Origin: Lachnospiraceae bacterium
Lineage (GTDB): Bacteria; Bacillota; Clostridia; Lachnospirales; Lachnospiraceae
Length of the DNA: 35,007 nt
NCBI GenBank assembly: GCA_030524705.1
Contig: JAUNGD010000036.1
Coordinates: 1-35,007 of the forward strand
Direction: 5' to 3'
Notes under the pieces: generated by a model
What the model saw: only the letters and a program-made list of their open reading frames with translations
Databases searched by the model: none
What the model was told of the DNA's origin: nothing
In this document: positions 2,303 through 17,318 of the stretch, piece by piece
Position numbering within the stretch: the stretch's first letter is position 1
Layout of the letters: every line of letters begins with the position of its first letter
Translations under genes and position numbers: made by a program

Positions 2303-3148
2303 TCATGCCTCAAGCCCCTTCAGCCAGCCCTGTACAATGCCTACCTGCAGATTTACGGCTCTGGCAATATTTTCCACAGACATCCCCATGTCAAAAAGAT
2401 TCCGGGCCGTTTCCTGCTTGCCCTCCTGCTCTCCGCATTTTCTTGCTGCTTCCTTTTCCCTTCGCAGATCCTCCGCAAAAATCTCTCTGAGCACCTCACA
2501 CATAGCACTTTCCTCCTCTACTTTTTCCCGGTTTGCTCTTCCTACGATCTCCATCACTGCCTGATAATCCGAATTTGTCTTCTTCTCTTCATACCGTTCC
2601 AGCAATTCCTGTATCTCACCGCCTGACTGCAGATCATTTCTAAGTATCTGCAGCCAGGAATTTTTCTCTTTTGAAAGCTGATTTATCACAATGACCTGCA
2701 TTGCGATTGAATCTCCGACAAGCTCATAAATCCCCTCGTCCTGTTCTACCGGGACGATCCCTCTCGCTCTCCGTATATGCTCCAGCATCTTTCTCGGATA
2801 ATGATAGCACGCAAAGGTAATCGTCAATTCATCAGGATCAATCTCCATGACCTTCTGCGTATCTGCCTGATAAAAACATGCATAGCCGTATACCTTATAA
2901 AAATCATTAATGCTCAGATAATCCCCGGGAGCCTTATACTCTATAATATTGTAGGTCCTGAAGATCCTTCCGATATTCTTCTTGATCCTTTCTCCCTTTT
3001 CTTTCTTGACGATCAGCATGTCTATCTGCATCGGCTTTTTGCTGAGGAGATGTTCTGTCTCAATCTGCATTCTGTCAGCCGCCTCCTCCATTTCTATTCT
3101 TATCGACGCATCAAAGGCAGCGTGCCACTGCAGCTTTCCATCGGTCAT
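2303..3148 (-). CDS. Rpn/PD-(D/E)XK nuclease-like family protein (putative transposase-related)
   Basis: The 281-residue protein belongs to a family that is abundant in Lachnospiraceae genomes and usually annotated as Rpn/PD-(D/E)XK nuclease-transposase. The sequence shows QIDMLIVKK followed about 25 residues later by IIEYKAP, which fits the D...ExK nuclease core. The C-terminus is charged and helical (residues about 190-250), then a short helix-turn-helix-like tail (MGMSVENIARAVNLQVGIVQGWL). Rpn proteins are known as recombination-promoting endonucleases, but no activity can be claimed for this member. The ATG has GGAGA five bases upstream. It is expressed from a perfect consensus promoter and may read into the carboxypeptidase gene. 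Nothing mobile (inverted ends, target duplication) is visible immediately around it. Confidence 0.75.
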   Translation of the reverse strand: MTDGKLQWHAAFDASIRIEMEEAADRMQIETEHLLSKKPMQIDMLIVKKEKGERIKKNIGRIFRTYNIIEYKAPGDYLSINDFYKVYGYACFYQADTQKVMEIDPDELTITFACYHYPRKMLEHIRRARGIVPVEQDEGIYELVGDSIAMQVIVINQLSKEKNSWLQILRNDLQSGGEIQELLERYEEKKTNSDYQAVMEIVGRANREKVEEESAMCEVLREIFAEDLRREKEAARKCGEQEGKQETARNLFDMGMSVENIARAVNLQVGIVQGWLKGLEA

Positions 3149-3280: not shown

Positions 3281-3309
3281 ATTATATGTATTTATTTCTT
3301 TTCTGTCAA
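3281..3309 (-). promoter_or_regulatory. Perfect consensus sigma-A promoter for the Rpn-like gene
   Basis: On the minus strand TTGACA (3309-3304) is followed after exactly 17 bp by TATAAT (3286-3281). The predicted transcript begins near 3274, giving a leader of about 125 nt. The leader contains a small hairpin (GGCAG/CTGCC, about 3230-3242). Confidence 0.75.
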
Positions 3310-7114: not shown

Positions 7115-8710
7115 ATGAATCAGCGACATTATCTTTTAAAAGGCACGTTTCTCCTGACACTTACCGGGCTGCTTACCAGAATGGCAGGATTCTTTTATAA
7201 AATATTCCTCTCACGTACGATTGGTGCGGCGGAGATCGGGCGTTTTCAGCTAACGCTCCCCGTCTATGCATTCTGCATGGCGCTTTCCTGCGGCGGTATC
7301 CAGACGGCAATTTCCAGGTTTACCGCAGAATACTATGCCGAAAAGGACAAACGGTCCGCGTTCCGCATCCTCGCCTGCGCTCTGATGCTGTCCGGCGGTC
7401 TCTCTCTCGGATGCGGCGCAGCGCTTTTTTTCGGCTCTTCCTGGATCGCAGCTTCCTTCTTATTGGAGCCCTCCTGTGATATGCTGCTGAAAATGATTGC
7501 CCTTTCTCTGCCCTTTTCCGCTGTACACGGCTGTATAAACGGCTTTCTGATCGGTCAGAAAAATGTTTCTGTCTCGGCCGCCTCGCAGCTGCTGGAGCAG
7601 ATGCTGCGAATCGTATCCGTTTTCTTCTTTTCCGCCATTTTTCAGAAGAGCGGACGCAGTATGGACGCCTCTGTTATGGCGCTGGGGCAGATTGCCGGAG
7701 AAATATCTGCCGCACTTTTCTGCATGTATCATCTCTTTTTCGGGAAACAGCCCTCCATAGAGCCCCTGGAGGATGTCTCAAACCATACAAAGCCCTCTTT
7801 TCATACGCTTTTTCAGCTTGTTCAGCGGGATATGAAAAAGCCCCTCTCCGTCTCAATGCCGCTGGGAATCAACCGTATGCTGATCTGTGTTCTACAGGGG
7901 ATTGAAGCTGCACTGCTTCCGCAAATGCTGGGCCTATTCGGCCATAATTCTTCGGAGGCTCTGGCCGTATACGGAACCCTGACCGGTATGACGATGCCTC
8001 TGATCCTGTTTCCTACAGCGGTAACGGGATCCCTTGGCACCCTGCTGCTGCCCGTCATCTCAGAAGACCGCGCCCTGGGAAAGGATAAAAAAATAGCCGG
8101 AACCATAAGCGCCAGCTTCCAGGGGAGCCTTTTGCTGGGCTACTTCTTTCTGACCGCGTTTCTTTTGTTTGGCAATGATGCCGGACAGCTTCTGTTTCAC
8201 AGCAGTCTGGCCGGAAGCTTCGCGCAGAAGCTGGCGCTGATCTGTCCGTTTTTATATATAAACACTACGCTGATCAATATTCTTCACGGTCTTGGAAAAA
8301 CAGTCGCCGCCTCTGTGTGGAATGTCATTGCTTTCGGTATCCGCCTGTATTTTATCATCGCCCTGGTTCCCGAAGCCGGAATCGACGGATACTTTATCGG
8401 AATGCTGCTCAGCCAGGCCTTCGTCACCGCCTGCTCGCTGGTCACACTTTACCGGCAGACACATTTTGCCGCCGACCTGACAGATACTATCATCAAGCCC
8501 GCCCTTATCTGTATTGTAAGCGGCGCCGGCCTTGAGGCACTGAAGCTGCTGTTTCCGGGCCTTTGTGGCGGCTCCGTCCCGGCCCTTCTGTTCAGTGTGC
8601 TCCTCTATACCTCTGTTTTTCTGCTGCTTGCACTATTGCTGCTGTTGAGAAAGGAAGAACGGAGCAAGCTGCTCAGCGCCTTCCGGCAAAGGCCCATCGT
8701 TAAAATATAA
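7115..8710 (+). CDS. Oligosaccharide/lipid flippase of the MATE-like PST family, SpoVB type
   Basis: The 531-residue protein is an integral membrane protein with about 12-14 hydrophobic helices throughout. The opening (KGTFLLTLTGLLTRMAGFFYKIFLSR) and the following IGAAEIGRFQL segment are typical of the SpoVB branch of the MurJ/MATE-like flippases. Such proteins export polyprenyl-linked saccharides across the membrane; SpoVB is needed for spore cortex synthesis, while relatives export capsule or peptidoglycan precursors. The window also carries spo0A and coat genes, so a sporulation role is plausible but not proven. The ribosome binding site is weak (GGCAGG). The gene is divergent from iscR and convergent with the XRE gene. 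Confidence 0.75.
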   Translation: MNQRHYLLKGTFLLTLTGLLTRMAGFFYKIFLSRTIGAAEIGRFQLTLPVYAFCMALSCGGIQTAISRFTAEYYAEKDKRSAFRILACALMLSGGLSLGCGAALFFGSSWIAASFLLEPSCDMLLKMIALSLPFSAVHGCINGFLIGQKNVSVSAASQLLEQMLRIVSVFFFSAIFQKSGRSMDASVMALGQIAGEISAALFCMYHLFFGKQPSIEPLEDVSNHTKPSFHTLFQLVQRDMKKPLSVSMPLGINRMLICVLQGIEAALLPQMLGLFGHNSSEALAVYGTLTGMTMPLILFPTAVTGSLGTLLLPVISEDRALGKDKKIAGTISASFQGSLLLGYFFLTAFLLFGNDAGQLLFHSSLAGSFAQKLALICPFLYINTTLINILHGLGKTVAASVWNVIAFGIRLYFIIALVPEAGIDGYFIGMLLSQAFVTACSLVTLYRQTHFAADLTDTIIKPALICIVSGAGLEALKLLFPGLCGGSVPALLFSVLLYTSVFLLLALLLLLRKEERSKLLSAFRQRPIVKI

Positions 8711-8828: not shown

Positions 8829-9161
8829 TTATTTTCTCATATCATTTATTAAAAACTGTATATGTACAATCTGCTCAGAGGTCAGCCCTTCCACACTCAC
8901 ATATTTTACTTCCTCTCCGAGAATAGTTTCCATACTGACCGCCAAAATCTGCGAAAGCCTTCTCAACATACTGGCAGAAGGTATGATCCTGTTATTCTCC
9001 CAGTTCGAAACAGCCTGTTTCGTAATCCCAAGCTGTCTTGCCAGTTCAGGCTGTGACAACCCACGTGCTTTTCTTAAATTCCGTAAATTATTGCCGAACC
9101 CGCCTTCCTTCTTACTTATTCTCTCCTCCGACATTGGCATTATATGATGAATTTCAGGCAA
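8829..9161 (-). CDS. XRE-family helix-turn-helix regulator
   Basis: The 110-residue protein contains one Cro/CI-type helix-turn-helix: NLRKARGLSQPELARQLG, then ITKQAVSNWENNR, about residues 27-60. A short C-terminal helical region follows, which may dimerise. The start is not obvious. The longest frame begins inside the terminator hairpin of the upstream surface gene. Internal ATG codons at 9140 and 9134 lack a site. A TTG at 9161 has AAAGGAG nine bases upstream and is chosen. The gene lies about 90 bp behind the phase-switchable surface protein on the same strand and has no clear promoter of its own, so it may be expressed by readthrough. Its target is unknown; the surface gene or the switch are natural candidates. 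Confidence 0.8.
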   Translation of the reverse strand: MPEIHHIMPMSEERISKKEGGFGNNLRNLRKARGLSQPELARQLGITKQAVSNWENNRIIPSASMLRRLSQILAVSMETILGEEVKYVSVEGLTSEQIVHIQFLINDMRK

Positions 9162-9187
9162 CCGCGGTATCTCCTTTCTTTCAAAAA

Positions 9188-9216
9188 GGCAGCAGGGGGT
9201 CATTCCCTCTGCCGCC
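9188..9216 (-). terminator. Intrinsic terminator of the surface-protein gene
   Basis: On the minus strand GGCGGCAGAGGG pairs with CCCCCTGCTGCC (one wobble, one mismatch) around a 5-nt loop, followed directly by TTTTTG. It lies about 35 bp after the surface-protein stop. Confidence 0.75.
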
Positions 9217-9251
9217 TGTTCGTCATTAATCCTTTACCTTTTCCTGTATCT

Positions 9252-12200
9252 TTATTTTGTAGTCCGCCTTTTTTTGTTCACAACAAGCGTTCCGGTAATG
9301 ACTGCTGCGCTAAGAACCAGAAGCAGAACCCAGAGGATTATATTGCTGCTATCCCCGGTTTTCGGCGCGCCCGTCTGTACGGAATTTGTCTGCGGCTGGT
9401 TCGACTCCGCATTATCCTTCGTAGAAGTACCTTCTTTTATAGTAGTGTCATCCTTCGTCGGTGCTTCTTCTTTCGTCGGTGTCTCTCCTGCCGTTGGCGT
9501 GTTTTCTTCTACCGGGGTCTCTCCGATAGCAGGTATCTCTCCGGTTGATGGAGTCGTTCCCGTTTCTCCGGTCACTGGAGTTTCTCCTGCTGCAGGGGTC
9601 TCTCCCGTTGACGGTTTTTCCCCTGTCGTAGGAGTTTCTCCCGCCGACGGTTTTTCCTCTGTCGCAGGAGTTTCTCCCGTCGACGGTTTTTCCCCGGCCG
9701 GCGGTGTGTCTCCGCCTGTAGATGGGCCGTCACCGGAAGGAGCAGGCTCTGTCTCTGCCGGATATTCTACTGTAATATCTGCATTATCATCAGGCGTCGT
9801 GCCATCCGGTAATTTCTCATCGTCTCCTGCAGACGCATCTGTCACAACGGCCGCATTTTTAATTACCGCTTTGCCTGTCATATTACTGTTCACGGCAGCT
9901 TTTATCGTTAGGACTACTGTCGTACCATTTGCCAGCGCCGGGATTGTCCAGATGCCGTTTGCAGAATCATACTGATCTGCCGGCGCCGCACTGATAAGAG
10001 TCAGATCGTCATCCAGCTGCTCAGATACTTTGATACCGCTTAAGTCTCTGCCAGTGTTATTGCTGACCTGAATCGTATAAGTCACCGTCTCCCCTGGGGT
10101 AACCGTAGTCTTGTCTGCAGTCTTGTTGACCATAAGCTTATCCCAGTCTGGTTTGTCCGGAGCAGCCGGCTCTGTCTGATTATCTACTTCTACTGTAACA
10201 TCTACACTGTCGCTCGGCTCTGTGCCCTCAGGCAGCTTCTCCCCGTCGTCATCAGATGCATCTGTCACTACAGCCGTATTGGGAATAACCATCTGCTCTG
10301 CCACGTTGCTGTTTACATTTACCTGAAGCGTCAAAGTCGCTGTCGAACCATTCTCCAGTGCCGGAATCGTCCAAACGCCGTCCGCTGAATCATACTGGTC
10401 TTCCGGAACGGCACTGATGAGCGTCAGATTGTCATTCAACTGCTCAGACACTATGATATTGCTTAAATTTTTTCCAGTATTATTTGTCACCTGAATCGTG
10501 TAGGTCACAGTATCCCCCGGTTTGACCGTAGTCTTGTCTGCGGTTTTGTTAACCGTAAGCTTATCCCACTCCGGTTGGTCCGGAGCAGCCGGCTCTGTCT
10601 GATCATCTACTTCTACTATAACATCTACACTGTCGCTCGGCTCTGTGCCCTCAGGCAGCTCCTCCCCGTCCTCGTCAGATGCATCCGTCACTGCAGCCGT
10701 ATTTGGAATAGTCATCTGTTCCGTCACGTTGCTGTTCACACTTACCTGAAGCGTCAAAGTCGCTGTCGAGCCATTCTCCAGTGCCGGAATCGTCCAGATG
10801 CCATCTGCAGAGTCATACTGGCCTTCCGGAGCGGCGCTGATGAACGTCAGATTGTCATTCAACCGCTCAGATACTATAATATTGCTTAAATTTTTTCCAG
10901 TATTGTTTGCCACCTGAATCGTGTAGGTCACAGTATCCCCCGGTTTGACCGTAGTCTTGTCTGCGGTCTTGTTAACCGTAAGCTTATCCCAGTCCGGTTG
11001 ATCCGGAACAACCGGCTGTTTTTTGGTATATGTGTTTTTTACTTCACGGTTCAAAGTACTTTTATTCGTTGCAGAAATGGCATATGCAAAACTGTCGTTC
11101 GCCTGATTTACACCATACATAGCTGTACCCGATATGGTCATATCATATCCGTCTATGTCCGCATTCTTTTCCGTCAGAAGCAGTTCATAAGTCGTTCCTG
11201 TTTCAACATTTTTATAATATGGCAGGCTCAGAGTACCTGTCAGGGTATCTCCAGTACCAGTCAAAAGAACTGTATCGGTAACTGTCTGGTTTGTCTCAAG
11301 GTTCTTGTAAGAATACATCATGGAAAAACCTTCTGGTGCAGAGGTAATATCTCCTGCAAATTTCTTGGTAATATTCATAGTGGAATATCCCTCAACAGTA
11401 ATCTTCTTATCCTCTTCCCAAACGGCATACAGGGTCTTTGTAACAGAACCACCATCATATCCCAAAACAGTTTGGGACACCATACATGAGCCTCCCGGCT
11501 GACGTGTAGCAACCCCACCAAGGGTATCACTCCATCCCTTAAACACATATCCCGGCTTTGTGGGCACTGTATTCGGAATTGTAAAGGTGTGGCTCTTCGT
11601 ATATTTGTCATCGGTTCCATACGTCTGATCCTCAGGCGCGCCTGTACCGCCGTTGGCATCGTATTTCAATGTGAAATTCCATAAATGGCTGGTGGTTCCA
11701 CCGCCGCCATTGCCAGTCGTCCATTGTGTCACCCAATAAGTGATTGTCTGAGTTTTCTGGTTTGTACCAAATTCCACATTTTGTCCAACCCGAGCATCAC
11801 CGCTGGCTGGAAGATGATACGGCCCTACAACTTTTGTTACTGTGCCAAAATTATAGCCTGCATATGCTGTTCCAGCCAGAAAATGATTCAGGTCAGGAAT
11901 CGTATAATAAGCCTGATAGGACTCTGTGCCGCTGCCTGCATAGGCCTTATCATCTCCACCGAGAAAAACCGAAGCCCCCGAACTTGCACAAAACACACGA
12001 GCCTGAATCGTAACCGGGTTATATAATGAACCCAACGGCTGCACTCCCCCCGTCAGCGCATTCATTGCCTGCGCCATAACGAGCACTGCCGCCTGCACAT
12101 CATCTCTTTCCAGCTCTTCCTCACTCAATACATCATAAGCCGCCGATGCTGCACCGATCTGTTCATTAAGCGCCTGACCGCTTTCGCTATTGATCTCCTG

Positions 12201-12734
12201 CGGAATAGTAATTGCTGCTACAGCGTCCAAAAATGCCTGCACGGCGGCTGATTTTCCTTCATTTGCCTCTCCGGCAGGATTAACATTTGCTCCCGGCGCT
12301 TTCATAGGGCTTCCGGACACAACCTGCTCCGCCGGATTTCCTTCCGCTGCCGGTCCTGCTGCGTTCTCCGGTGCTGCCGATTCTGTCTGATTGTCCGTCC
12401 CCGTTGTTTCCGGAGCTGCCGTTGTCTCCTCCTGACTTCCGCCGTCTGTCGTATCCGGCTGGATTTCTTCTCCTGCCGTCTCCCCCTGAGTTTCCGATAC
12501 GGCCGGACTTTCTGAATCCTCCGACTGTTCCGGGGTACTTTCTTCCGTCAAAGCAGCTGTCTGCTCATCCGGATTGCCGCTCTCCGGCGTGCTGCCTTCC
12601 TGTTCATAAGTTGCGGCCGAATTAAAACCGGCAAGGTTACCTTCTTCTGCGAATGTCGTCATGCAGAGAGAAAGAACCATAACCGCTGACAATAAAAATG
12701 CCATAATACGCCGCGTATTTGCTTTTCTCTTCAT
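9252..12734 (-). CDS. Cell-wall-anchored multidomain repeat surface protein (phase-variable candidate)
   Basis: The 1160-residue protein starts with a signal peptide (basic MKRKANTRR, hydrophobic core, TTFAEE cleavage region near residue 27). Next comes an acidic Glu/Thr/Pro/Ala-rich stretch to about residue 190. An InlB-type beta-repeat lies near 350-445 (YDANGG, GYVFKGWSD). A SpaA/Cna-like domain follows near 455-580 (MNITKKFAG). Then come three tandem 141-residue DUF11-type Ig-like units to about residue 1000, and a Pro/Thr/Glu stalk of 12-residue repeats (KPSTGETPATEE type). The C-terminus is a sortase signal: APKTG, a hydrophobic helix, and a basic tail NKKRRTTK. The ATG at 12734 is chosen because it opens the signal peptide. 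It probably acts as an adhesin or host/cell contact protein outside the cell. Upstream is an invertible promoter now pointing away, so the gene is predicted OFF in this molecule. No sortase is in the window. Confidence 0.9.
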   Translation of the reverse strand: MKRKANTRRIMAFLLSAVMVLSLCMTTFAEEGNLAGFNSAATYEQEGSTPESGNPDEQTAALTEESTPEQSEDSESPAVSETQGETAGEEIQPDTTDGGSQEETTAAPETTGTDNQTESAAPENAAGPAAEGNPAEQVVSGSPMKAPGANVNPAGEANEGKSAAVQAFLDAVAAITIPQEINSESGQALNEQIGAASAAYDVLSEEELERDDVQAAVLVMAQAMNALTGGVQPLGSLYNPVTIQARVFCASSGASVFLGGDDKAYAGSGTESYQAYYTIPDLNHFLAGTAYAGYNFGTVTKVVGPYHLPASGDARVGQNVEFGTNQKTQTITYWVTQWTTGNGGGGTTSHLWNFTLKYDANGGTGAPEDQTYGTDDKYTKSHTFTIPNTVPTKPGYVFKGWSDTLGGVATRQPGGSCMVSQTVLGYDGGSVTKTLYAVWEEDKKITVEGYSTMNITKKFAGDITSAPEGFSMMYSYKNLETNQTVTDTVLLTGTGDTLTGTLSLPYYKNVETGTTYELLLTEKNADIDGYDMTISGTAMYGVNQANDSFAYAISATNKSTLNREVKNTYTKKQPVVPDQPDWDKLTVNKTADKTTVKPGDTVTYTIQVANNTGKNLSNIIVSERLNDNLTFISAAPEGQYDSADGIWTIPALENGSTATLTLQVSVNSNVTEQMTIPNTAAVTDASDEDGEELPEGTEPSDSVDVIVEVDDQTEPAAPDQPEWDKLTVNKTADKTTVKPGDTVTYTIQVTNNTGKNLSNIIVSEQLNDNLTLISAVPEDQYDSADGVWTIPALENGSTATLTLQVNVNSNVAEQMVIPNTAVVTDASDDDGEKLPEGTEPSDSVDVTVEVDNQTEPAAPDKPDWDKLMVNKTADKTTVTPGETVTYTIQVSNNTGRDLSGIKVSEQLDDDLTLISAAPADQYDSANGIWTIPALANGTTVVLTIKAAVNSNMTGKAVIKNAAVVTDASAGDDEKLPDGTTPDDNADITVEYPAETEPAPSGDGPSTGGDTPPAGEKPSTGETPATEEKPSAGETPTTGEKPSTGETPAAGETPVTGETGTTPSTGEIPAIGETPVEENTPTAGETPTKEEAPTKDDTTIKEGTSTKDNAESNQPQTNSVQTGAPKTGDSSNIILWVLLLVLSAAVITGTLVVNKKRRTTK
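9560..9720. repeat. 36-bp tandem repeats encoding the Pro/Thr/Glu stalk
   Basis: Degenerate 36-bp units encode KPSTGETPATEE, KPSAGETPTTGE and KPSTGETPAAGE, then degrade. Repeats of this kind form an extended wall-spanning stalk in Gram-positive surface proteins and are prone to copy-number change by slippage. Their periodicity also creates a long open frame on the plus strand, which is not a gene. Confidence 0.75.
9740..10986. repeat. Three tandem 423-bp repeats (DUF11-type domains)
   Basis: Unit boundaries, marked by the TCCCA(G/C)T(C/T)(T/C)GG segment, fall at 10987, 10564 and 10141, exactly 423 bp (141 codons) apart. Each unit encodes WDKL(T/M)VNKTADKTTV, then a beta-rich TYTIQV core and an acidic, proline-containing linker. 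The first two units are nearly identical at DNA level; the C-terminal one has diverged, especially in its linker. Confidence 0.88.
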
Positions 12735-12926
12735 CGCCTTTTCGTCTCTCCTTTCGATTTGCACTCTGGTGCGACGCCTGGAGCTGCATATGTCAAAATC
12801 GCTGTTTCTGTCTTCCCATCCGCCCGCCTCGCTGCAGGATTGTAATCGTGCAGGCAACGATAATATCTCCTTTCCCGAAAACACAAACGGATACCCAGCA
12901 AATTTTTGTCTGCCAGAACTTTCACC
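12735..12926 (-). other. Fixed leader between invertible segment and surface gene
   Basis: This 192-bp stretch would form most of the 5' leader of the surface-protein mRNA when the switch is ON. I see no good promoter on the minus strand within it. A GTG-initiated 64-codon frame (12925-12731) ends on ATGA overlapping the surface-gene start, but it lacks a ribosome binding site and is not called. Confidence 0.45.
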
Positions 12927-12949
12927 TCATAATTTGTCTTATGTGGTAT
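12927..12949 (+). repeat. Left inverted repeat of the invertible promoter (recombination site)
   Basis: This 23-bp sequence is repeated perfectly in inverse orientation at 13195-13217. It contains CATAATTTGTCTTATG, in which CATAA and TTATG are inverted arms around a 6-bp TTTGTC spacer. That is the form expected of a tyrosine-recombinase crossover site. Confidence 0.85.
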
Positions 12950-13030
12950 GATGTACCGTGCTTTTGGGAAGATCAGACATGAAAGATTGATAAAGGCAAA
13001 ATATCCGCGGGAAAAAAGCTCAATAAAACA

Positions 13031-13060
13031 AGTCTTTCTGGAAAAGTCTGCAGAAAGGCT
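13031..13060. terminator. Hairpin inside the invertible segment
   Basis: AGTCTTTCTG (13031-13040) pairs with CAGAAAGGCT (13051-13060) around a 10-nt loop, with one wobble position. On the minus strand it is followed by TGTTTTATTG, so in the present orientation it could stop stray transcription heading for the surface gene. After inversion it would lie behind the promoter. Confidence 0.45.
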
Positions 13061-13122
13061 CTATTTTCATACTTAAAAATAAAGAAAACCGGAAAAAAAC
13101 TATAAATTTCATGGTATTTCCT

Positions 13123-13151
13123 TTGACAAAACTATCGTTTGGCAATATAAT
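13123..13151 (+). promoter_or_regulatory. Perfect consensus promoter within the invertible segment
   Basis: TTGACA (13123-13128), a 17-bp spacer and TATAAT (13146-13151) match the sigma-A consensus at all twelve positions. In this orientation the transcript starts near 13158 and runs towards the 3' end of the recombinase gene on its antisense strand, until the hairpin at 13243-13265. Inversion would direct it into the surface-protein gene. Confidence 0.88.
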
Positions 13152-13194
13152 GAAAAAGAGTTTGGAGCTAAGTTATGTAATGTTCTGCCCACAA

Positions 13195-13217
13195 ATACCA
13201 CATAAGACAAATTATGA
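13195..13217 (-). repeat. Right inverted repeat of the invertible promoter (recombination site)
   Basis: Perfect 23-bp inverse copy of 12927-12949, 51 bp from the recombinase stop codon. Confidence 0.85.
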
Positions 13218-13242
13218 AGCAAATACAACGGGCTGGTGCATC

Positions 13243-13265
13243 AAAAAAGCATTTGCTCTTTTTTT
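13243..13265. terminator. Bidirectional A/T-flanked terminator between switch and recombinase
   Basis: AAAAAAGCA pairs with TGCTCTTTTTT around a TT loop, with T-runs in both directions. It ends three bases before the recombinase stop. It would stop the OFF-state promoter transcript after about 108 nt and also end recombinase transcription, insulating the two. Confidence 0.55.
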
Positions 13266-13268
13266 GCG

Positions 13269-14108
13269 TCAGACCACAAGACCCAGGGCATCCAGACAAC
13301 GTCGGTGCTCCTTTCCGCTGCTGATAATATAGATCCGGGTCGTGTTGATGCTGCTGTGTCCTAGTATATCTGCCAGCTTTGCAATATCTTTATCTACAGA
13401 ATAGAAGCACCGGGCAAACAGGTGGCGCAGATTATGCGGAAACACTTTTTTCTCATCTACGCCCGCATCCCGGCACAGCGCTTTCATCATCTTCCAGATG
13501 TTGCTCCGGTCCAGCGAGCGCCCGGTTCTGGTGACGAAGACCGGCCCGGAACTAATCTTCTCCCGGTGTATGAATTTCTTCAGATTTTTTTGCAGCTTCC
13601 GGGGAATTAAAATCGTCCTCGTTTTTCCTTTCAAGCGGATCAAAGCCTCGCCCTGGTCAATTGCTTCCACTGTGATATATTTCACCTCGGACACCCGGAT
13701 TCCGGTACTGCAGATTGTCTGCAGCAGCAATGCCAGTTTCTCGTTTTTCCTTTTTTCAGCTGCCTTTACCAGCCGCAGATATTCCTCCCGGCTCAGTTCT
13801 CTTTCTGCAGGACAATAGGCGGTACGCTGGATCTTTAGCAATTTCATGCACAATTCTTTTTTCCTGATAAAAATAAAAAAACTGTTTAAGGCAGACAGCT
13901 TTGTATTCACACTAACTGGCCGGTATTTTTGTTCCAGTTTCTGCTTGTAAGCCACAGCCGCTTCCTTTGTAAGTACCTCCGTATCCAGAGAGGACAAAAA
14001 TCTGAAAATATCCCGTCTGTATTGATTAATGGTGGCTTTACTGCGCTCTTCCTGTTTCAAATAATTCAGATAGCTTTCCAACTGCATTTCATATTCTGTT
14101 TTTTCCAT
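13269..14108 (-). CDS. Tyrosine recombinase (XerC/XerD-like), candidate invertase of the adjacent promoter switch
   Basis: The 279-residue protein has an N-terminal SAM-like core-binding domain (about 1-90) and a C-terminal catalytic domain. Catalytic residues are visible: Arg138 in STGIRVSE, Lys160/162 in RLKGKTR, His225 and Arg228 in PHNLRH, His251 in LGHSS and nucleophile Tyr260 in TRIYI. All are present, so the enzyme should be active. This size and layout match stand-alone recombinases that invert short promoter segments in Firmicutes and Bacteroidetes. Its gene ends 51 bp from one inverted repeat. No integrase-type attachment sites or cargo are seen, so an inversion role fits better than element integration. 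The ATG has GGAGG about six bases upstream. Its own promoter is not clear. Confidence 0.92.
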   Translation of the reverse strand: MEKTEYEMQLESYLNYLKQEERSKATINQYRRDIFRFLSSLDTEVLTKEAAVAYKQKLEQKYRPVSVNTKLSALNSFFIFIRKKELCMKLLKIQRTAYCPAERELSREEYLRLVKAAEKRKNEKLALLLQTICSTGIRVSEVKYITVEAIDQGEALIRLKGKTRTILIPRKLQKNLKKFIHREKISSGPVFVTRTGRSLDRSNIWKMMKALCRDAGVDEKKVFPHNLRHLFARCFYSVDKDIAKLADILGHSSINTTRIYIISSGKEHRRCLDALGLVV

Positions 14109-14218
14109 GACAATTACCTCCTACCGAAAATAAATCTTTTCATTTTTTCTGAAACACAAGATGACACTGCCTTTTTTTGTCTGCCGTTCGCAGCGTCGGT
14201 GTACTTCCAGCATACCAA

Positions 14219-14251
14219 ACAAGCCGCAGAGTGTTTCACCCCGCGGCCTGT
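14219..14251 (-). terminator. Terminator behind the coat protein genes
   Basis: On the minus strand ACAGGCCGC pairs with GCGGCTTGT (one wobble) around a 15-nt loop, followed by TTGG. On the plus strand the stem is followed by TTTTTC. It lies 36 bp after the CotF-like gene stop and before the recombinase gene. Confidence 0.55.
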
Positions 14252-14286
14252 TTTTCTAAAGTATTCGCTGATTCGTCAAGTATATC

Positions 14287-14535
14287 TTAGCCCTGCATCA
14301 AAATCGACTTCACATGCTCAATTTCTTCTCTTGTTGCCTGGGCTGCCGGCACATAATACTGCTTACTTCTTGCAATCTGGTAGATTTCCTCCTGGGACTG
14401 CTCGCACTGGTTGCGGATCTGTTTCAGAGTCTGTTTCAGCTGCATGTTTTCTGTCTGAGAAATCATCTCGCCGTAACGAACCAGTTCGCCATTGATACCC
14501 GCCAGAGTATCAGATACCATTGTTTTCTCGTCCAT
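14287..14535 (-). CDS. Small CotF-like spore coat protein
   Basis: The product is about 82 residues and predicted to be all helical. It contains AGINGELVRYGEMISQTEN, a glutamine-rich helix (NQCEQSQEEIYQIA) and YYVPAAQAT. This pattern is typical of small coat-F-domain proteins that clostridia encode in pairs and that associate with the spore coat or outer layers. Three consecutive ATG codons (14541, 14538, 14535) follow GGAGG; the last has the best eight-base spacing and matches the usual MDEK-type start. It lies 29 bp behind the other small coat gene on the same strand. Function beyond the coat assignment is not known. Confidence 0.75.
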   Translation of the reverse strand: MDEKTMVSDTLAGINGELVRYGEMISQTENMQLKQTLKQIRNQCEQSQEEIYQIARSKQYYVPAAQATREEIEHVKSILMQG

Positions 14536-14564
14536 CATCATAACCTCCTTCACTTTTTGTCAGC

Positions 14565-14750
14565 CTACTGCAAAAACTGCATCAGCTGCTGCTTGCTCTC
14601 CATAGCCGACTGTGCGGATTTCTGGAAAAACTGTTTTACACCCGGGTCCGTGGCCTGCTGTGCATACGCCTGCATTTTGCAGTGTGTCGTTGAAAATCCG
14701 CCGATCAGATGACGAAGATTCTGAAGGTCAAGTTCTGAAATCTGATTCAT
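14565..14750 (-). CDS. Small coat-associated protein, partner of the CotF-like gene
   Basis: The 61-residue protein (MNQISELDLQNLRHLIGG, then HCKMQAYAQQA and MESKQQLMQFLQ) is predicted to be helical. It belongs to a short family found immediately upstream of CotF-like genes in Lachnospiraceae, resembling the N-terminal half of longer coat F proteins; together the pair may equal one full-length protein. It has GGAGGG eight bases before the ATG. That site overlaps one arm of a hairpin upstream. I infer a spore coat role from the partner and from the nearby spo0A. Confidence 0.72.
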   Translation of the reverse strand: MNQISELDLQNLRHLIGGFSTTHCKMQAYAQQATDPGVKQFFQKSAQSAMESKQQLMQFLQ

Positions 14751-14761
14751 AAAAAAATCCC

Positions 14762-14809
14762 TCCTTCCGGATACTGAGTTACTATCTCAGTATGTCCCGA
14801 AAGGAAGGA
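14762..14809. promoter_or_regulatory. Leader hairpin overlapping the ribosome binding site of the coat genes
   Basis: TCCTTCC (14762-14768) pairs with GGAAGGA (14803-14809), and inside it TACTGAG (14772-14778) pairs with CTCAGTA (14786-14792). On the minus strand the hairpin ends inside the GGAGGG site of the 61-residue gene, which could limit translation or stabilise the mRNA end. Confidence 0.5.
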
Positions 14810-14845
14810 AAATATACAGTCCTTAAAATTTGTAAATTTTATAAA

Positions 14846-14861
14846 ACCGGATAACGCCGGT
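14846..14861 (-). terminator. Intrinsic terminator of glgA
   Basis: On the minus strand ACCGG-CGTTAT-CCGGT is followed by TTTTATAAAATTT. It begins 12 bases after the glgA stop codon. Confidence 0.6.
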
Positions 14862-14872
14862 ACCTGACTATT

Positions 14873-16309
14873 TTACAGCCAGTCATACAGCTCCTGGTAC
14901 TTTCTTGCTGAGCTGTTCCAGGAGAAGTCAGCCGCCATGCCGCGGTCAATCAGCTTGTTCCACTCACGCTTCTTATTGTAGAAGGTATTCATTGCATACT
15001 GCAGGGTAAAATACATCTCATGTGCATTGTAATTTGCAAAGCTGAAGCCTGTTCCTGTACCCTCGTATTCGTTATACGGTACAACAGTATCTTTCAGTCC
15101 GCCCGTCTCTCTGACGATCGGAACCGTGCCGTACCGGAGGCTCATCAGCTGGGAAAGTCCGCAGGGCTCAAACAGAGACGGCATCAGGAATGCATCGCAG
15201 GAAGCGTAAACCTTGTGGGACAGTGCTTCCGAATAGAAAATATTTGCGGATACCTTACCCTGGTATTTCCATGCAAAATGGCGGAACATATTTTCATATT
15301 TTTCTTCGCCGGTTCCCAGCACAACGACCTGAATATCGTTCTGACAGATCTCATCCATCATATGGGCGATCAGGTCAAAGCCCTTCTGGTCCGTCAACCG
15401 TGAAACAATACCCACCATAAAGGTAGAATCATTCTGCTCCAGCCCAAGCTCCCGCTGCAGAGCTCTCTTGTTCTTGATCTTCTCCTTGCGGAAATTGCGG
15501 ACATTGTAATGATGCTCAATCATCGGGTCTGTCTCCGGATTGAATACGTCATAATCAATTCCGTTGACGATGCCGCGCAGGGAATTGGCCCGGGCACGCA
15601 TCAGCCCGTCAAGTCCCTCGCCGTAGAACGGCGTCTTGATCTCCTCCGCATAGGTGTCGCTGACCGTCGTAATAGCGTCCGCATACACGATGCCGCCCTT
15701 CAGATAATTGGCGTCACCGTACGCCTCCAGCTTGTCCGGCGTAAAATAATAGGCCGGAAGTCCCGTGATGTCCCGCACGGTCTTCACATCCCACACGCCC
15801 TGGAACTTCAGATTGTGAATTGTGATCACAGACTTCATGTCCTTGAAAAACTCTCCCTCATGGAACTTATCCTTGAGAAGTACCGGGATCAGTCCGGTCT
15901 GCCAGTCATGGCAGTGAACAATATCCGGCTGGAAACCGATCAGCGGAAGCGCCGACAGCGCTGCCTTGGAGAAAAATGCAAATTTTTCAATATCCTGATA
16001 AATGTTTCCGTACGGCTTTGAACCGGCAAAATAGTATTCATTGTCAATAAAGTAAAACTGTACGCCTTCATACTCCATCTCAAGTACGCCGACATACTGG
16101 GAACGCCATGCAAGATCCATGTAAAAATGTGTCACATAATTCATCTTGCTCTTCCACTCTTCACTCATGCACATATATTTCGGAAGAATCACGCGAACAT
16201 CGTATTCCTCTTTATTGAAACATTTCGGAAGAGAACCGGCTACATCTGCAAGACCCCCCGTCTTGATAAATGGCACTGCCTCAGAAGTAACATAAAGTAT
16301 TCTTTTCAT
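14873..16309 (-). CDS. glgA: Glycogen (starch) synthase, ADP-glucose-dependent
   Basis: The 478-residue GT5 enzyme transfers glucose from ADP-glucose to the growing alpha-1,4-glucan. The N-terminal donor-site motif is KTGGLADV (Lys16 region). The catalytic-domain signatures include HCHDWQTGL, the SRLTDQKG stretch and the C-terminal PSLFEPCGLSQ segment with the conserved Glu. Length is normal. The ATG at 16309 has GGAGG seven bases upstream and begins MKRILYVTSE as in the family; the longer frame does not. It lies 118 bp downstream of spo0A on the same strand but has its own promoter. Other glg genes are not in the window. Glycogen storage and sporulation are linked in clostridia, which makes the adjacency sensible. 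Confidence 0.95.
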   Translation of the reverse strand: MKRILYVTSEAVPFIKTGGLADVAGSLPKCFNKEEYDVRVILPKYMCMSEEWKSKMNYVTHFYMDLAWRSQYVGVLEMEYEGVQFYFIDNEYYFAGSKPYGNIYQDIEKFAFFSKAALSALPLIGFQPDIVHCHDWQTGLIPVLLKDKFHEGEFFKDMKSVITIHNLKFQGVWDVKTVRDITGLPAYYFTPDKLEAYGDANYLKGGIVYADAITTVSDTYAEEIKTPFYGEGLDGLMRARANSLRGIVNGIDYDVFNPETDPMIEHHYNVRNFRKEKIKNKRALQRELGLEQNDSTFMVGIVSRLTDQKGFDLIAHMMDEICQNDIQVVVLGTGEEKYENMFRHFAWKYQGKVSANIFYSEALSHKVYASCDAFLMPSLFEPCGLSQLMSLRYGTVPIVRETGGLKDTVVPYNEYEGTGTGFSFANYNAHEMYFTLQYAMNTFYNKKREWNKLIDRGMAADFSWNSSARKYQELYDWL

Positions 16310-16342
16310 ATACGAACCTCCGCTCATTCGAGTATTGATAAA

Positions 16343-16371
16343 ATTATAACTCATTTTCTCCGTAATGAAAA
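16343..16371 (-). promoter_or_regulatory. Promoter of glgA
   Basis: TTTTCA (16371-16366), a 17-bp spacer and TATAAT (16348-16343) on the minus strand predict a leader of about 27 nt. Confidence 0.5.
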
Positions 16372-16427
16372 GTGTTTCTTCCAGGGGTTTCTCATTATTT
16401 TTTCAAAAAGATTTTAATATCAGTCAA

Positions 16428-17225
16428 CTATGCTCTGTTCTTGTATTCGAGGCGAATTTTATCCGCAATCAATGCGATAAATTCAGAATTTGTCGGTTTT
16501 CCTTTTCCATTGCTTACCGTATAGCCAAACAATTCATCAATCGTATCCATTTTCCCCCGGCTCCATGCCACCTCAATCGCATGGCGGATTGCCCGCTCTA
16601 CCCGGCTGGGCGTCGTCTGATGGCGTTTTGCGATAGTCGGATACAGGATTTTTGTGATGGAATTGAGCATTTCCATGTCCTCCACCGACATGATGATCGC
16701 ATCCCTTAAGTACTGATATCCCTTAATATGTGCAGGAACTCCGACTTCATGTATAATATTTGTGACATCTGTTTCCAGATTGTGTTCCATGTACGCTTTC
16801 TGGCTTTCATAAGCACTTACCTTTTTTGCTTTCGACGCATTACGCATCTGCCTTGTACGGACACGTTTGATCCGGTTCACCACCGTATCATTATCAAAAG
16901 GTTTCAATATATAATAATCTGCGCCCAGGTCAAATGCATCCTCGGTCATCTTTTCCTGGCTGACCGCTGATATTACGATAAACGCAGGTTTTTTCAAATT
17001 TGGCTCATGGTTGATCCGGTCCATAACTGTCAGTCCGTCCAGCTTCGGCATGATAATGTCAAGCAGCACAACATCCGGCTTTTTCTCCTTGATAATCTCG
17101 ATCAATTCCTCACCGTTTCCGGCTTTTCCGACTACCTCCAGTTCTTCATCGCTGCTTACGATACGATCCAGCAGCTGCACCATTCTCTCATTGTCATCAG
17201 CAATTGCAATATTCAGCTTTTCCAT
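16428..17225 (-). CDS. spo0A: Sporulation master regulator Spo0A
   Basis: The 265-residue response regulator has a receiver domain (residues about 5-125) with the acidic pair ADDN, the phosphoacceptor Asp in VVLLDIIMP and the Lys in ILKPFD. The C-terminal Spo0A effector domain (about 150-260) carries the recognition helix region [14 protein letters not shown] and the activation loop sequence RGKMD. Phosphorylated Spo0A binds TGNCGAA-type boxes and starts sporulation and other stationary-phase programmes. The ATG at 17225 has GGAG eight bases upstream; the longer frame adds residues not found in the family. Spo0A is usually preceded by spoIVB; here an unrelated flavoprotein gene lies upstream. 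Confidence 0.97.
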
Positions 17226-17318
17226 TTTATACTCCTCTCCTGAAATGTTTTCTGTCGTTGCACCGCTGCATTTTTTGAGGGCCCTTACCAAAAATTGTCA
17301 TGTACAAAAACTACTTGT

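Follow-up and report, generated by a model that had tools for sequence, protein, structure and literature searches.

The locus described here raises the question of whether a short DNA segment, lying between a recombinase gene and the gene for a large surface protein, is an invertible promoter and thus a phase switch. The window analysed is a whole contig of 35,007 bases from an assembly of 3.87 Mb that is 88% complete. The first-pass annotation had taken an inverted repeat in this region as the boundary of a promoter-bearing switch, sequenced in the OFF state, with a recombinase, a surface-protein target and a downstream regulator. The locus is very probably a self-contained phase-variation cassette, comprising the recombinase, its own pair of Xer-like sites, a promoter segment and an adhesin-like surface gene.

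The inverted repeat and the promoter

A perfect 23-bp inverted repeat enclosing 245 bp had been reported, and every coordinate was found to be exact: the arms are complementary at 23 of 23 positions with 245 nt between them (Table 1). Base composition predicts 3.5e-7 perfect inverted repeats of 23 bp in the window for arms no more than 1 kb apart, and the arm is unique in the 3.87-Mb assembly in a search allowing up to 3 mismatches. The layout of half-sites and centre was derived from 94 relatives described below. The 6-bp centre is identical in both arms, and the outer half-sites are degenerate, with 6 of 9 positions palindromic.

Table 1 Features of the switch locus and its surroundings in the window.
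Feature	Position	Strand	Remarks
spo0A	16428-17228	-	
glgA	14873-16309	-	
61-aa gene	between glgA and CoatF-domain gene	-	
CoatF-domain gene	14287-14553	-	
Tyrosine recombinase gene (279 aa)	13269-14108	-	Phage_integrase match; probable invertase of the 245-bp segment
Possible terminator of OFF transcript	13230-13265	+	hairpin of 10 bp with one mismatch, then seven T; ends 3 nt short of the recombinase stop codon
Right recombination site	13195-13217		inner half ATACCACATAA 13195-13205, centre GACAAA 13206-13211, outer half TTATGA 13212-13217
Consensus promoter TTGACA-17-TATAAT	13123-13151	+	12/12; -10 box 43 nt from right site; points away from surface gene
Invertible segment, OFF orientation	12950-13194		lies within the repeat and holds the promoter; equivalent segment inverted exactly in L041/L042
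Left recombination site	12927-12949		outer half TCATAA 12927-12932, centre TTTGTC 12933-12938, inner half TTATGTGGTAT 12939-12949
Surface-protein gene (target, 1160 aa)	9252-12734	-	signal peptide, three DUF11 repeats, PKTGD anchor
HTH regulator gene	8829-9203	-	just past target; membership in switch unsupported
spoVB-like gene	7115-8710	+	faces the minus-strand genes

The promoter within the segment matches the consensus fully and, as described at the outset, points away from the surface gene; the reading of the sequenced state as OFF is well supported. About 3e-5 such matches are expected by chance in a segment-sized stretch of window-wide composition, a figure that is somewhat too low because the segment is more AT-rich than the window. 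One other 12/12 match occurs in the window, at 3309-3281 on the minus strand (3281-3309 in forward numbering), upstream of a minus-strand gene at 2303-3148. A scan of 12600-14300 for the sigma-70 consensus, on which all promoter calls rest, returned four promoter-like sites, all on the plus strand. Both the recombinase and the surface gene are transcribed from the minus strand, where no promoter-like site was found in the scanned region, including one of the recombinase gene's own. By coordinate arithmetic, inversion would bring the end of the -10 box to 12993 and the transcription start to around 12986, leaving about 252 nt ahead of the surface gene's ATG, in agreement with the roughly 250 nt first proposed. 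A plus-strand hairpin is also present inside the segment (13031-13060, z -2.65), in a stretch that is partly conserved in a related locus, L033; the stretch common to the two segments has the same orientation in both.

The hairpin and T-run between the segment and the recombinase gene fold with modest energies (z -1.3 to -2.3), and a stricter terminator scan of 12600-14300, with loops up to 8, listed no terminator. In L033 a possible 12-bp hairpin with a T-run occupies the equivalent place despite diverged sequence, and the fold there prefers another structure. Hairpins with a T-run were found on the recombinase side at 51 of 94 related loci, as against 30.8 in shuffles that preserved base composition only, and those on the target side also exceeded such shuffles (17 against 8.4). 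Tentatively, the hairpin and T-run may insulate the recombinase from its own switch. A very stable hairpin between the CoatF-domain and recombinase genes (14195-14260, minus strand, -32.7 kcal/mol, z -6.7) is probably the end of the CoatF transcript.

The surface protein and the HTH gene

The predicted target begins with a signal sequence, as judged by eye, and is preceded by a ribosome-binding site (GGAG near 12749). Its three DUF11 repeats (1.2e-65) also match an isopeptide-forming fimbrial domain, and the C-terminus consists of PKTGD, a hydrophobic stretch and KKRRTTK. The textbook sortase motif is LPXTG, from which PKTGD departs. Nine sortase matches over cut-off are present in the same genome, and anchoring of the protein to the wall may fairly be inferred. 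A related target was found beside one other cassette only (L177, 34% identity), and L151 gave a weak match (24%).

The downstream regulator named in the first-pass annotation does exist as an HTH gene, but its membership in the system is unsupported: as a relative was seen at only 1 of 138 other cassette loci, the gene was rejected as unproven and is not counted as a part of the switch.

The recombinase and its relatives

The gene alongside the repeat, from which it ends 51 bp away, encodes a complete tyrosine recombinase, as had been stated. The protein matches Phage_integrase (2.9e-25) and a SAM-like N-domain, and the catalytic residues R138, K162, H225, R228, H251 and Y260 are all present; the six positions are kept in 92 to 94 of 94 relatives. 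The nearest solved chains, aligned over most of the length, are the XerC-like 4a8e (5e-22) and XerA 5hxy (1.5e-20). Three Xer-family models scored below their cut-offs (152 against 220, 120 against 335 and 125 against 330 bits), the last two being those of the housekeeping XerC/XerD equivalogs, and a FimB/FimE-type model gave 31.1 bits against a cut-off of 221. As a tyrosine recombinase, the enzyme beside the switch is not of the serine invertase type (Hin, Mpi). Its nearest outside relative, at 74% identity, is that of L033.

Searches with the recombinase (E up to 1e-40) gave matches in 82 of 397 genomes of the family and 63 of 391 of the class, these sets overlapping. A set of 108 distinct related recombinases was assembled from genes with at least 700 bp of unmasked downstream DNA, identical genes being counted once and hits below 37% identity dropped. 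This left out 25 loci with less than 700 bp downstream, among them L042 (689 bp), retained solely for comparison with L041, and five with runs of N; wider regions were lacking for 31 family-level matches (29 weak ones and two of genome G347) and for weaker matches of another search. For 94 of the 108, an inverted repeat was found no more than 130 bp from the recombinase stop codon, and the remaining 14 include L191, with a repeat at 288 bp. There are 65 genome or record labels among the 94 loci, which represent at most 63 assemblies, since L036 and L041 share one, as do L039 and L040. A strict test, which required an exact repeat of at least 14 bp, was passed by 83 of 98 loci; among 280 control windows taken from these loci, 6 passed. 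The class-level check took in 29 loci rather than every class-level match, and 23 of the 24 with enough room had the repeat.

The site common to the family is ACCACATAA-N6-TTATGTGGT. When the centre is chosen to maximise palindromy, 84 of the 94 loci have halves with at least 7 of 9 palindromic positions; the centre is identical in both arms in all 94, largely by construction, and self-palindromic in none. This is the layout of an Xer-type site whose crossover region is asymmetric. Recombinase similarity is tracked weakly by the half-sites (r 0.17, p 0.011) and not by the centre (r -0.04, p 0.80). The site lies less than 40 bp from the recombinase stop codon in 86 of the 94 loci, abutting or overlapping it in most relatives, and the median gap between arms is 241. 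The degenerate outer half-site of the window recurs next to the recombinase gene of L033, which also has a perfect 21-bp repeat.

At L044 (5940-6424), arms of 51 bp, each with two tandem copies of the site, enclose 380 nt that contain a 12/12 promoter. Long inverted repeats were also seen 5' of the recombinase in L074, L153 and L165 (scores 297, 71 and 49), possibly marking further rearranging DNA. One genome, G092, has six cassettes with six different site sequences (L049, L058, L060, L061, L067 and L069), possibly a natural set of private recombinase-site pairs.

Orientation of the segment in related assemblies

Comparison of the segment between related assemblies had been suggested as a check, and it disclosed an inversion. 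L041 and L042 belong to two Candidatus Mediterraneibacter assemblies that differ in name and in sample number. Their segments are identical at 229 of 229 positions when one is inverted and at 80 when it is not, while the flanks are collinear, with 300 of 300 and 299 of 300 bases in direct order; the promoter points toward the recombinase in L041 and toward the target in L042. Therefore, elements of this recombinase-switch family do invert. Opposite orientations were also found within looser groups, namely L173 as against L041, L043 and L172, L175 as against L180 (over 55 nt only), and L024, L081 and L085 as against members of L083, L086 and L087. The window's own copy is known in one orientation.

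A promoter match of at least 10/12 located 30-60 nt inside an arm was found at 33 of the 94 loci. It points to the recombinase in 25 of them and to the target in 8, with none in both directions, against 1.27 expected per direction from shuffles preserving base composition; the other 61 loci have no such match at the usual place. At a threshold of 9 there were 50 matches toward the recombinase, 22 toward the target and 7 in both, compared with 9.05 expected. As matches inside the arms exceed those in shuffles, the promoter has a favoured place. By these calls, the sequenced copies appear to lean to the OFF orientation (25 to 8, p 0.005; 41 to 13 in the looser call, p 0.0002), with p values that are generous because the loci are related, and with 40 of the 94 loci giving no orientation even in the looser call.

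Genomic placement and targets

CoatF was found in 32 congeners, of which 29 were examined as loci. A spoVB-like gene lies downstream of CoatF in 21 of these, within about 400 bp in 17 and at 1.08-1.25 kb in four; it was not seen in the other 8 stretches, four of which are shorter than 1.5 kb. The recombinase, surface and HTH genes were absent from the stretches downstream of CoatF in all 29. As CoatF and the spoVB-like gene adjoin without a cassette, about 5.4 kb of the window is missing from most congeners examined. Cassettes downstream of glgA on the same strand occur in three other genera, with recombinase identities of 51-54%: L129, 0.3 kb from glgA, next to a gene with a von Willebrand domain; L148, 2.2 kb away, with a neighbour that has InlB-type repeats and with spo0A on the far side of glgA; and L181, 4.3 kb away, next to what was called a DUF6273 protein. 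The placement may reflect either a preferred landing site or an old address that most congeners have since given up. An origin from a phage or other mobile element was rejected, as the region 9000-17300 had no megablast match in the phage collection and gave one weak viral hit, of 32% over 57 residues.

At 85 of the 94 loci a gene lies in the expected direction, and at 9 the longest nearby frame is opposed. Targets were called as the longest frame whose start lies no more than 900 bp from the arm, so some of the calls are wrong. Pfam was run on 67 of the 85 targets, long ones being cut to 650 residues, and among the matches listed (25 of 61 families) are surface repeats, capsule-synthesis enzymes, Rrf2 regulators, helicases and EAL domains. 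From its targets, the switch looks modular. At L034 a signal peptidase comes first and a secreted protein of 1138 aa or more after it. For L043 and L173 the called target is an Rrf2-type regulator and not a surface protein.

Proposed mechanism and alternatives

In the proposed mechanism, the recombinase would bind the two sites, exchange strands within the asymmetric 6-bp centre and invert the 245 bp. As sequenced, the promoter would fire toward the recombinase gene, with a transcript that may stop at the hairpin and T-run before that gene, and the surface gene would be OFF, with no promoter in view. In the ON orientation the inverted promoter would read through the left site into the surface gene, giving a leader of about 252 nt. 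For the window's own copy we infer inversion by the adjacent recombinase, as well as the activity of the promoter, the terminator and the phenotype.

Promoter inversion could be accompanied by feedback, the OFF promoter driving antisense RNA into the recombinase gene and so holding the switch OFF, an effect comparable with the control of fimE by orientation. The short distance from site to stop codon (below 40 bp in 86 of 94 relatives) and the lean of promoters toward the recombinase (25 to 8 or 41 to 13, with generous p values) are consistent with this, but a hairpin with T-run intervenes both here and in L033 and makes the feedback less attractive, as does the excess of such hairpins on the recombinase side (51 of 94 against 30.8 in composition-only shuffles); it is considered unlikely. 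That the cassette is genuine and no longer inverts in this strain, leaving the surface gene permanently off, would fit the single known orientation, the deviation of the outer half-sites from consensus and the lack of a visible promoter for the recombinase gene. This appears distinctly improbable in view of the perfect repeat, the shared centre, the intact catalytic residues and the occurrence of the same degenerate half-site with a perfect 21-bp repeat in L033, whose recombinase is 74% identical.

Two further explanations would assign the repeat another role. In C. difficile CwpV, as described in the available text of PMC2784873, the relevant promoter lies beyond the segment, which acts as a terminator when turned one way; the plus-strand hairpin inside the segment (13031-13060, z -2.65) would suit such a mechanism, but it is very improbable here, given the 12/12 promoter inside the segment, the promoter that relatives keep at a fixed place inside an arm and the absence of minus-strand promoter-like sites in 12600-14300. 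The integrase-like recombinase and the lack of the cassette at the same place in most congeners examined might suggest the attachment or excision sites of a mobile element. These sites, however, are inverted and not direct, and the layout recurs beside 94 of 108 relatives, so a mobile element is hardly credible as an explanation.

A promoter switch driven by its neighbouring recombinase is thus preferred, and its arrangement corresponds to that of known phase-variable promoters, as first claimed: sites, promoter, recombinase and target lie together, in a layout kept by 94 of 108 relatives. Taken across the family, it might represent a Clostridia-wide plug-in switch, in which a recombinase, a private Xer-like site pair and a promoter at a fixed distance from the arm are combined repeatedly with unrelated targets (adhesins, capsule synthesis, regulators). 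Every copy would have its own half-sites and central 6 bp, so that several could work in one genome without crosstalk, and copies would lean OFF with the promoter directed into a terminator; we regard the case for this broader scheme as evenly balanced. The locus presents, for a large group of Clostridia, a surface-protein phase switch that is complete and readable. Together with the layout rule, the site ACCACATAA-N6-TTATGTGGT allows switches of this kind to be recognised in assemblies, often along with whether they are ON or OFF, and the family supplies a natural series of recombinase-site pairs with which site recognition by tyrosine recombinases can be studied.

Comparison with known systems

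The recombinase is similar over its full length to XerA, XerC and XerD, and in both cases half-sites surround a 6-bp centre. It differs from the Xer enzymes in scoring under the family cut-offs and in having sites that are inverted pairs around a promoter.

The fim switch of E. coli has the gene order fimE-fimS-fimA, with the recombinase at the switch and a fimbrial target. Its promoter, on a segment between inverted repeats as here, is described as inverting (PMC2784873). By analogy, the window's switch would work like the fim switch, although the enzyme is not of the FimB/FimE type (about 31 bits against 221), no second recombinase was found beside the switch and the target is a predicted wall-anchored protein rather than a fimbrial one. 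The cwpV/RecV system of C. difficile, as far as that text describes it, shares with the window a tyrosine recombinase, short inverted repeats, a surface protein and its occurrence in Clostridia (PMC2784873). In that system the promoter sits beyond the segment, control acts through termination, and recV maps to another part of the genome (PMC2784873), whereas in the window the promoter is inside and the recombinase adjacent.

With near-perfect inverted repeats and a promoter-bearing segment upstream of a gene, the locus has the structure of an inverton; both orientations are known from its relatives L041 and L042, and the intact recombinase alongside is a candidate for the inverting enzyme. In the accessible text of Jin et al. 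2025 (PMC11892184), inverton group 139, of 33 invertons with 32 from Clostridia, was detected by read mapping and grouped statistically, and its link to invertase group 35 is the strongest inverton-invertase link reported. The motif is given as previously unpublished, with orientation changes in Clostridium sp. D5 and Intestinimonas (PMC11892184). By a broad criterion, a tyrosine recombinase beside an inverton in Clostridia, these groups resemble the window's family. The geometry is also similar, two members having 26-bp arms 205 nt apart and 14-bp arms 227 nt apart (PMC11892184), compared with a median of 241. The window's family is therefore probably inverton group 139 with invertase group 35, as matched by geometry and taxonomy rather than by motif in the text available.

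It had also been suggested that the pairing of this recombinase with this surface protein is undescribed. That can stand at most for the exact gene pair, on which no paper was found by title or abstract in a search covering few subscription papers; fragments of the site returned only papers that seem unrelated by title. The family has probably already been found as a statistical group, and an invertible promoter beside a tyrosine recombinase is a known class, to which the window adds a copy with a well-defined family around it.
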